DNA of 64,000 nucleotides. It comes from Agathobacter sp. Its GTDB lineage: Bacteria; Bacillota; Clostridia; Lachnospirales; Lachnospiraceae. This document shows positions 5,875 to 8,175 of the stretch, one piece after another (the stretch's first letter is position 1; each line of letters opens with the position of its first letter). A model generated the notes under the pieces. It saw only the letters and a list, made by a program, of their open reading frames with translations. It did no database searches and had not been told where the DNA came from. Position numbers and translations under genes: made by a program. The stretch spans positions 1 to 64,000 of the forward strand of contig JALFLB010000059.1 in NCBI GenBank assembly GCA_022775045.1, written 5' to 3'.

Positions 5875-5893
5875 CAAAAGCGGAAAATTTTTC

Positions 5894-5922
5894 TTGCAAT
5901 CACCAAAAGATTGTGATAAAAC
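5894..5922 (+). promoter_or_regulatory. Promoter of the aspS-gatCAB operon
   Basis: TTGCAA (5894-5899) and TAAAAC (5917-5922) are separated by 17 nt, placing the start near 5930, just before the T-box leader. The -10 is weak, so this is a moderate call. Confidence 0.45.
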
Positions 5923-6026
5923 AAACATAGAAAAAATGAAAATGCAGTGAAGGAGACTCCAATCATCAGAGGCCGACAGGAATACAGCGTCACCGACTGA
6001 GAGCGCTGTTTGGATGAGGTGATAAG

Positions 6027-6068
6027 GCGAAAGCATGTGCGTAGGCACTCAATCAGAGGTTGAGCACA
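6027..6068 (+). repeat. Leader module A (42 nt, repeated at 6261-6302)
   Basis: Begins GCGAAAGCATGTGCGTAGG and ends GTTGAGCACA. It aligns without gaps to module B with 34 of 42 positions identical. It can fold as GTG...CAC outside and CTCAA/TTGAG inside with a 7-nt loop, leaving CGTAGGCA bulged. It lies between the T-box stem I region and the antiterminator. Confidence 0.6.
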
Positions 6069-6260
6069 TAGGGGAACACTCCGGAGCAGACGGGCTGAAC
6101 ATGGAATCAGAACAAGCACAAAAAGTAGGTTCGTACGTTGGCGCACGTTACGCGTAAGAGAGGGAAGATGAGCTACGGTTCATGTTTCAATGCGGGTGGT
6201 ACCGCGGATAATGTACTGAGTGAGATCAAGAAGAAGCACATGCATGAGAATTTCGCTGAC

Positions 6261-6302
6261 GCGAAAGCAAGTGCGTAGGTACTTGATCGAAGATTAAGCA
6301 CA
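6261..6302 (+). repeat. Leader module B inside the antiterminator
   Basis: Begins GCGAAAGCAAGTGCGTAGG and ends ATTAAGCACA. Relative to module A, the inner stem changes CTCAA/TTGAG to CTTGA/TTAAG, so one C-G pair becomes T-A and one A-T becomes G-T, keeping the pairing. A TTTCGC-TGAC-GCGAAA hairpin (6251-6266) precedes and overlaps it. It sits in the loop closed by GCGGA/TTCGC of the T-box antiterminator. Confidence 0.6.
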
Positions 6303-6308
6303 ATGTTC

Positions 6309-6344
6309 GCCCCGGAATACAATTTAAGTATTCCGGGGCTTTTC
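6309..6344 (+). terminator. T-box intrinsic terminator
   Basis: GCCCCGGAATAC (6309-6320) pairs perfectly with GTATTCCGGGGC (6328-6339) across a 7-nt loop and is followed by TTTT. The first six bases are shared with the antiterminator, the classic T-box switch. Confidence 0.93.
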
Positions 6345-6413
6345 TTATGTTCAATTGTTCAATTTGAATGGGTTCTGAATAGTAATAGTTTGAATGTAAG
6401 AAAAGCCCCGGAA
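6331..6413 (+). repeat. 17-bp inverted repeat linking the terminator to the aspS ribosome site
   Basis: TTCCGGGGCTTTTCTTA (6331-6347, the terminator's 3' arm and U-run) is exactly complementary to TAAGAAAAGCCCCGGAA (6397-6413), 49 nt downstream. When antitermination frees the 3' arm it could pair with this third strand, making a hairpin that ends 4 nt before AAGGAG (6418-6423) of aspS. It may be a second control layer or a leftover of a duplicated terminator. Confidence 0.6.
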
Positions 6414-6429
6414 GGAAAAGGAGTAGAAG

Positions 6430-8175
6430 ATGAGCAATATTTACAGAGACGTTACATTGAATCAGGTGAGTGAAAGCGATATTGGAAAATCAATCCGTGT
6501 CGCAGGCTGGGTCGAGAACATCCGTGATCATGGAGGGGTATCCTTTATCGATTTGAGAGATATGTATGCGGTGATGCAGATCGTTATCCGTGATGGAAAA
6601 CTGTTAGAGGGCATTCGTAAGGAGCAGGCTATCACTGTGCAGGGACTTATTGAAAAGAGAGATGAGGAGACCTATAATCCGAAAATTCCGACTGGAACGA
6701 TCGAGTTGGATGCAAAGGAGATTACCGTACTTGGAGAGGTATATTCCCAGCTTCCGTTTGAGGTTATGACCAGTAAAAGTGTTCACGAGGATGTCCGTCT
6801 CAAGTATCGCTATCTGGATTTGAGAAATCAGAAGGTTAAGGACAACATTATTTTCCGGTCTAAAGTCATTTCTTTCCTGCGGGAGAAGATGACCGAGATG
6901 GGATTTTTGGAACTGCAGACACCAATTCTTTGTGCATCTTCACCGGAGGGTGCGAGAGACTATATTGTACCTTCCAGAAAATTTAAGGGTAAATTCTATG
7001 CCCTGCCGCAGGCACCCCAGCAGTATAAGCAGCTTTTGATGGTGTCTGGCTTTGATAAGTATTTCCAGATTGCACCGTGTTTTCGTGATGAAGATGCCAG
7101 AGCAGACCGTTCCCCGGGAGAGTTCTATCAGCTGGATTTTGAGATGAGCTTTGCAACGCAGGAGGATGTTTTCAAAGTGGGAGAGGAAGTGCTTTCTGCT
7201 ACATTTGAGAAATTCGCACCGGAGGGAAGCGTGATTACCAAGGCGCCTTATCCGATTATCAGCTATAAACAGGCGATGTTGGAGTTCGGAACGGACAAGC
7301 CGGATCTGCGTAACCCGCTGCGAATTATTGATGTGACAGATTTCTTCCAGAAGTGTACCTTTAAGCCGTTTATCGGCAAGACGGTTCGTGCTATCCGGGT
7401 ACATGCAGATATGTCCAAAGGATTCCATGAGAAGTTGTTAAAGTTTGCCACAGGACTGGGAATGGGGGGACTCGGATATCTTGAAGTGCTGGAAGATGGC
7501 TCATACAAAGGACCAATCGACAAGTTTATCCCGGATGACTGTAAGGAAGAATTCCGTGCGTTGGCAGGTCTGGAAGTTGGCGATACGATTTTCTTCATGG
7601 CTGATAAGGAGGAGCGTGCCGCTTATTATGCAGGCATGATTCGTACCGAGCTGGGTGAGAAGCTGGATCTGATTGAGAAGAATGCCTACCGTTTCTGCTA
7701 TGTAAACGATTTCCCGATGTTCGAGAAGGATCCGGAGACCAAGAAGATTGGTTTCACCCACAACCCATTCTCTATGCCGCAGGGAGGTCTTGAAGCCCTT
7801 GAGACCATGGATCCATTGGAGATCCTGGCTTACCAGTATGATATTGTCTGCAATGGTGTGGAACTGTCTTCTGGAGCTGTTCGTAACCATGATATGCAGA
7901 TTATGGAAAAGGCATTTGAGATTGCAGGCTATGATAAGGAAGTCTTAAAGAATAAGTTTGGAGCACTGTATACCGCATTCCAGTATGGAGCTCCGCCACA
8001 CGCCGGTATGGCACCGGGAGTTGACCGTATGATCATGCTGCTTCGCAATGAGGATAATATCCGCGAGGTCATTGCGTTCCCGATGAATGGAAATGCACAG
8101 GATCTGATGTGTGGTGCACCGAATGAGGTGACTGAGCAACAGCTTCGAGAAGTGCACATCAAAGTAAGGGAGTAG
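6430..8175 (+). CDS. aspS: Aspartyl-tRNA synthetase
   Basis: Class II synthetase that attaches aspartate to tRNA-Asp and, in organisms using the indirect route, also to tRNA-Asn. The 581 residues are normal for the bacterial type. N-terminal OB-fold anticodon-binding domain about 1-105 (VRVAGWVENIRDHGGVSFIDLRD region), catalytic core with the motif 2 region FRDEDARADRSPGEFYQLD and motif 3 APGVDRMIMLL, plus the bacterial insertion domain in between. Start ATG 6430 has AAGGAG at 6418. It is the first gene after the T-box leader and is followed within 6 nt by gatC. The link to gatCAB suggests a non-discriminating enzyme whose Asp-tRNA-Asn is amidated by GatCAB; this is inference. Confidence 0.97.
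   Translation: MSNIYRDVTLNQVSESDIGKSIRVAGWVENIRDHGGVSFIDLRDMYAVMQIVIRDGKLLEGIRKEQAITVQGLIEKRDEETYNPKIPTGTIELDAKEITVLGEVYSQLPFEVMTSKSVHEDVRLKYRYLDLRNQKVKDNIIFRSKVISFLREKMTEMGFLELQTPILCASSPEGARDYIVPSRKFKGKFYALPQAPQQYKQLLMVSGFDKYFQIAPCFRDEDARADRSPGEFYQLDFEMSFATQEDVFKVGEEVLSATFEKFAPEGSVITKAPYPIISYKQAMLEFGTDKPDLRNPLRIIDVTDFFQKCTFKPFIGKTVRAIRVHADMSKGFHEKLLKFATGLGMGGLGYLEVLEDGSYKGPIDKFIPDDCKEEFRALAGLEVGDTIFFMADKEERAAYYAGMIRTELGEKLDLIEKNAYRFCYVNDFPMFEKDPETKKIGFTHNPFSMPQGGLEALETMDPLEILAYQYDIVCNGVELSSGAVRNHDMQIMEKAFEIAGYDKEVLKNKFGALYTAFQYGAPPHAGMAPGVDRMIMLLRNEDNIREVIAFPMNGNAQDLMCGAPNEVTEQQLREVHIKVRE

Follow-up and report, generated by a model that had tools for sequence, protein, structure and literature searches.

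The aspS leader in the window, the 64,000-nucleotide stretch of an Agathobacter sp. contig analyzed here, carries two related 42-nt modules, A and B, which are probably copies of a dispersed, non-autonomous hairpin repeat of the BOX/REP/MITE kind that is tolerated where RNA folding permits. The repeat is a small non-coding element that some members of the Roseburia group of Lachnospiraceae carry; it is a new cousin of the known bacterial hairpin repeats and is present twice in one riboswitch. Module B is part of a copy of this two-hairpin repeat, and module A, judged from its match to B, is a truncated copy. The duplication is accounted for as dispersed, probably mobile DNA and not as a new riboswitch part.

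Modules A (6027-6068) and B (6261-6302) aligned without gaps with 34 of 42 positions identical, and seven of the eight differences were transitions, the single exception being T6036, which is replaced by A. When the 556-nt leader (5875-6430) was dinucleotide-shuffled 300 times, the best 42-nt self-match was 26 and a match of 34 was never reached; the duplication was also recovered as repeat family D1. The stem CTCAA/TTGAG of module A (6048-6052/6060-6064) becomes CTTGA/TTAAG in module B through one double change (C6050-G6062 to T-A) and one wobble (A6051-T6061 to G-T). These results bore out an earlier sequence-only reading of the leader, which had reported the gap-free duplication, the predominance of transitions, and an inner stem kept by compensatory change. 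The same reading had described a CGTAGG segment that is unpaired in both modules. The segment is identical in A (6040-6045) and B (6274-6279), but it was only mostly unpaired in the predicted folds, and its final G was paired in the fold of A. In both modules, the inner stem corresponds to hairpin 2 of the repeat, and CGTAGG contains the GTAG tag.

The modules lie in a T-box leader that contains the T-box motif GGTGGTACCGCG near 6195 and precedes aspS, gatC, gatA, and gatB, in this order (Table 1). The insert just 3' of Stem I contains module A, which comprises the 3' half of hairpin 1, the tag GTAG (6041-6044), and hairpin 2. Module B is the 3' portion of a longer unit that was matched by the covariance model R2 at 6232-6284, and the 5' portion of this unit is missing from module A. 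In hairpin 1 of copy B, the outer stem (6236-6243/6267-6274) includes one A-A mismatch, and the inner stem pairs 6251-6256 with 6261-6266. Model R2 did not detect module A in the window even at an E-value of 10; the membership of A in the repeat therefore rests on its match to B. Besides B, R2 found no convincing copy in the window, the second match scoring 12.1 bits (E = 0.11). An Rfam 15 scan over the inserts yielded, apart from the T-box, only weak matches below the gathering threshold, such as anti-hemB at 16.4 bits (gathering 49.5).

Table 1. Positions of the aspS leader features and repeat copies in the window
Feature	Position	Strand	Evidence
T-box leader of aspS, Rfam RF00230 match	5939..6221	+	35.8 bits, E 2.4e-6; gathering 93
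Insert of approximately 46 nt with A, immediately 3' of Stem I	6024..6070	+	Absent from the R. faecis leader; A-B identity
Insert of approximately 90 nt with B, apical loop of antiterminator	6213..6302	+	R. faecis has CTGA there; predicted fold
Hairpin 1 of copy B	6236..6274	+	R2 match 6232-6284, 56.7 bits, E 2e-18; predicted fold
GTAG tag of copy B	6275..6278	+	GTAG or GCAG at 80/95 sites
Hairpin 2 of copy B, CTTGA/TTAAG stem	6279..6301	+	Predicted fold; position as in other copies
T-box terminator hairpin, then TTTTC	6309..6339	+	Inverted repeat I2, 12/12 paired
aspS, aspartate--tRNA ligase	6430..8175	+	ORF; NCBIfam NF001750 741.7 bits, cut-off 443

Of 60 genomes, 25 matched the aspS leader, the window's own among them, and the stretch of module A was missing from most of the alignments. 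Nine of the related aspS leaders scanned were without A and B; eight of these scored 60-81 bits against RF00230, below the gathering threshold, and the ninth (L007, genome G032) gave no RF00230 match at an E-value of 0.001. Three leaders that carry the repeat on the 3' side of Stem I (L059, L163, and L087) scored 42-58 bits. Insertions thus accompany a lower T-box score (35.8 and 42-58 bits with the repeat versus 60-81 bits without it). The copy just 3' of Stem I was contiguous in G061 and G080, and the G017 contig starts within an array. The antiterminator of R. faecis reads GGATAAT-CTGA-ATTATTCG, with CTGA as its terminal loop; in the window, approximately 90 nt including B stand in the place of CTGA, and the predicted antiterminator still forms around B.

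Two types of AspRS were observed in the genus behind closely related T-box leaders (window 6430; L003, L005, L008, L010, L013, and L018-L020). The window, R. faecis, G017, and G061 carry the bacterial type, and other genomes carry a shorter AspRS resembling aspartate--tRNA(Asn) ligase, as tested on one 78-residue N-terminus. A 24-nt inverted repeat (92%) at 6331-6413 of the window shares sequence with the terminator and could fold into another large hairpin ahead of aspS. The aspS leader was also matched, at 83% over 41%, by a human fecal record labeled 'Bacteriophage sp.' (MT835487.1, 5155-5361), which is unannotated and may be bacterial DNA.

Copies of the repeat were observed well beyond the leader. 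Model R1, comprising hairpin 1 and the tag and built from eight copies, matched 17 of 62 genomes of the genus, taken to be the Roseburia/Agathobacter group, at an E-value of 0.01, and most genomes of the genus were without a match. Twelve of the 17 had a best E-value below 1e-9; the remaining five had one match each at approximately 0.004-0.005 and were not counted as carriers. R1 matches at an E-value of approximately 9e-4 or worse were excluded, with the exception of G032:C22:20763. The second model, R2, was built from 72 matches. At E-values up to 0.01, R2 gave at least 13 matches in the window's own genome, at least 67 in G032, at least 9-16 in each of eight other relatives, and, with 150 candidates scored per genome, none in three other relatives. 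Across the family, with 20 candidates scored per genome, R2 matched at least 24 of 299 genomes at an E-value of 1e-4, the window's own genome included. A whole-model match was found in at least 17 of these 24; in the other seven, the matches listed covered the hairpin only, with no tag. Seven family genomes had a best E-value below 1e-9 among the matches listed.

Among the matches listed, the part of the leader covering module B also occurred at two further places in the window's own genome and in six other genomes of 60 (G017, G026, G061, G075, G079, and G080); three further listed genomes matched the leader mainly at the terminator. A local duplication confined to the leader was ruled out because further copies exist in the same genome. 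The pattern GCRYAGG..GGAGC was of little use in this genome (24 forward and 15 reverse matches versus 7 and 7 for the control). A check for viral or plasmid carriage gave no exact pattern match in the viral_contigs collection and no match in plasmids.

Neighboring matches were merged into a mapped set of 95 sites. Simple ORF calling gave 58 sites that are flanked by genes on both sides and are not spanned by an ORF; among these, the repeat was sense to both genes at 28, antisense to both at 14, and mixed at 16. The unit consists, in order, of AGGAG, hairpin 1, a GTAG or GCAG tag, and hairpin 2, and head-to-tail arrays of units were frequent. Hairpin 1 has an outer stem of approximately 8 bp with a freely variable sequence, a 5' bulge that is usually ATGAGA or ATGAAA, an inner stem, and a short loop. 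The window site is counted with the 15 untagged sites for the sole reason that 6302 was taken as its end. A hairpin 2 with a strict score followed the tag at 35 of the 80 tagged sites, compared with 23 of 1900 random positions, and hairpin 2 was below the strict threshold at the other 45. The stretch AAGGAG...ATG was rejected as a mini-ORF because the ATG is not kept among copies, as in ATAAGAG and CATTTTAAA.

Covariation was analyzed in 63 distinct copies of hairpin 1, drawn from an input of 72 matches from 51 sources and aligned by fitting to the structure. In this model-fitted alignment, 97.4% of the cells paired, 12 of the 13 pairs showed double changes, and the covariation score was 0.481, versus 0.144 for shuffled and at most 0.054 for slid alignments. 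Single sites showed the same behavior. Between the orthologous atpD-atpC copies of G000 and G009, a T-A pair of the outer stem is exchanged for C-G, and the outer stems at the tyrS site have diverged at most positions but remain complementary. Palindromic DNA repeats give the same covariation pattern, so covariation alone is no proof of selection on RNA. The earlier reading is supported in part: its stem kept by compensatory change is correct, and the covariation of hairpin 1 is real, but a duplicated module tied to the T-box is not supported.

Filled and empty versions of the same site were also found in RNase P RNA and in a gene gap. RNase P was detected in 54 of 62 genomes, and the stretch of its RNA that corresponds to helix P12 was read at 33 loci and found at 32. 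Twenty-six stretches were short (19-45 nt, for example CCAC-TTTT-GTGG) and six were long, and the repeat was present in four of the six (G009, G017, G032, and G080). In the window's own genome, the P12 stretch (L197) is 81 nt long and holds two other GTAG hairpins, with no repeat-model match there among the matches listed. The atpD-atpC gap was readable at 19 of 30 loci; by eye, G000, G017, and G009 had the gap filled, and the remaining 16 did not. The atpD-atpC gap of the window's own genome (L093, approximately 1120-1155) also contains another dispersed palindrome, GCCCATTTGCCGAAGGCAAATTTTGCATGGGC; it recurs at many places in G017, G080, G032, G009, and G061 and at least once more in the own genome.

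The repeat also occurred at a tyrS T-box (tyrS being named from the protein start), at a lysine riboswitch, at the flanks of tRNA and tmRNA, and at SRP RNA. In Rfam scans of 60 loci (L097-L156), the repeat overlapped an Rfam RNA or lay no more than 50 nt from one at 14, with raw counts of 11 on the same strand and 3 on the opposite strand. Several sites were common to two to four species, indicating that copies can be old or retained.

A transposon-like context was found in G361, a genome of another genus, in which the two-hairpin module lies within a 211-bp MITE-like element that has inverted ends and starts with GTAACTATTCAG (L263-L275). Twelve near-identical copies of this element were examined and 11 were located; their 8-bp flanking duplications were perfect in six of the 11, matched at seven of eight positions in four, and matched at four of eight in one. 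In the window's genus, comparison of rnpB and aspS sites revealed neither terminal inverted repeats nor target duplications, and no transposase was tied to the repeat. Dispersal, filled and empty sites, covariation, and the place in the predicted fold are observed; mobility in this genus, a mobilizing enzyme that acts on the repeat, and the effect on aspS are inferred. Short elements recur in genome G216 (L279-L281, L298, and L299); their ends are near GTAACTGTTCACA...TGTGAACAGTAAC, and they enclose a hairpin resembling hairpin 1 without the tag.

The sequence-only reading had described a duplicated RNA module flanking the T-box; in line with it, the modules could be a cis-acting part of the T-box that tunes tRNA sensing. 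Copies in the aspS T-boxes of four genomes and the tyrS T-boxes of three, all on the leader strand, would fit such a role, as would the location of B in the antiterminator. We nevertheless regard it as very improbable because eight related aspS T-box leaders lack the modules and a T-box motif lies within 600 nt of just 7 of the 95 sites, most of which are unrelated to T-boxes. The covariance-model search that had been proposed along with this role found the repeat dispersed, mostly away from T-boxes, which counts against the role on the terms of its own proposal. A broader function under selection in untranslated regions, such as RNA processing, RNA stability, or protein binding by the hairpin, would account for the strong covariation of hairpin 1, the sites common to several species, and the 14 of 60 loci at which the repeat lies in a known RNA or at most 50 nt away. 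The twofold excess of sense over antisense orientation (28 versus 14 of 58) and the shared strand of 11 of the 14 copies near RNAs could likewise mean a role at the RNA level. Such a function seems unlikely, however, given that antisense copies exist, that no copies were seen in most genomes of the genus, and that the near-identical G361 copies lie in a transposon-like element.

The tag at 80 of 95 sites and the enrichment of a hairpin behind it recall a true REP of the GTAG superfamily, mobilized by a RAYT (TnpA-REP) single-strand transposase. This identity appears quite unlikely, since copy numbers of at least 9-67 per carrier stand against the more than 100 often seen for REPs, and the two-hairpin units form head-to-tail arrays and not single hairpins in mainly opposed pairs. 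A Y1 transposase domain was found in only 2 of 12 genus carriers (several genomes are incomplete, and the domain also covers IS200), and it was not enriched in the family (6 of 14 carriers versus 11 of 14 non-carriers); this absent association in genus and family speaks against mobilization by RAYT or IS200. Finally, the sites in an RNase P RNA loop, a T-box antiterminator loop, and a T-box junction might be read as a preference of the spreading repeat, at the level of RNA or single-stranded DNA, for the loops and junctions of RNA genes that are folded and transcribed, which would graft ready-made helical domains onto ribozymes and riboswitches. We consider this extension unlikely.

As a dispersed and tolerated hairpin repeat, the element lies in non-coding DNA that is often transcribed and would persist at places, for example the tip of a helix or a junction, where the host RNA can still fold around its self-contained hairpins. 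RNase P RNA or other genes also tolerate the cyanobacterial STRR repeats and the Rickettsia palindromic elements; the present repeat is similar in this respect, but those elements belong to other phyla. In the window leader, one copy would have replaced the antiterminator loop, and another would have landed 3' of Stem I. The T-box of the window is expected to remain functional, possibly with changed kinetics.

Among described repeats, the pneumococcal BOX element offers a close parallel: one report places a BOX element between two T-boxes upstream of trp, co-transcribed with them (PMC3049150). According to the same source, BOX elements are likewise small modular hairpin repeats, some of them tandem, in the non-coding DNA of a Gram-positive bacterium, but they have terminal inverted repeats and target duplications, neither of which was seen in the window's genus (PMC3049150). 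The present repeat differs further in standing inside an antiterminator and inside RNase P RNA. The comparison with BOX is one of description. Two scans of viral_contigs with BOX patterns returned, respectively, nothing and a coding stretch that is not BOX.

The GTAG REPs and BIMEs with RAYT share with the present repeat an unpaired GTAG tag beside a hairpin, complementary changes, and a mostly intergenic location (PMC3733652; PMC8266576). They differ from the present repeat, whose units have two hairpins and stand in head-to-tail arrays, with tens of matches per genome and no RAYT association. The accessible part of PMC3733652 describes GTAG repeats from Proteobacteria, Cyanobacteria, Chloroflexi, and the PVC group, and Firmicutes did not come up when its text was searched for that term; it also gives head-to-tail arrays as rare among REPs. 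The G361 module, within its 211-bp element, resembles MITEs in its inverted ends and 8-bp duplications, but the sites compared within the window's genus showed no ends of this kind. The literature searched, which lay mostly outside subscription journals and included term searches of RepRanger (PMC12306157) and a HuH survey (PMC6006769), yielded no description of the present repeat.

A covariance model is now available for this gut-bacterial repeat family, to which no Rfam family corresponded in the present scans. The natural pairs of filled and empty sites in RNase P RNA, the T-box antiterminator, and the operon gap make the structural tolerance of ribozyme and riboswitch loops directly testable, and they also allow one to ask whether such repeats tune expression. 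Two other RNA matches were noted: a Hammerhead_II ribozyme on the minus strand elsewhere in the window's own genome (L092, 1992-2060, 57.5 bits) and a pemK RNA in the window at 423-478 (35.5 bits versus a gathering threshold of 34.8).
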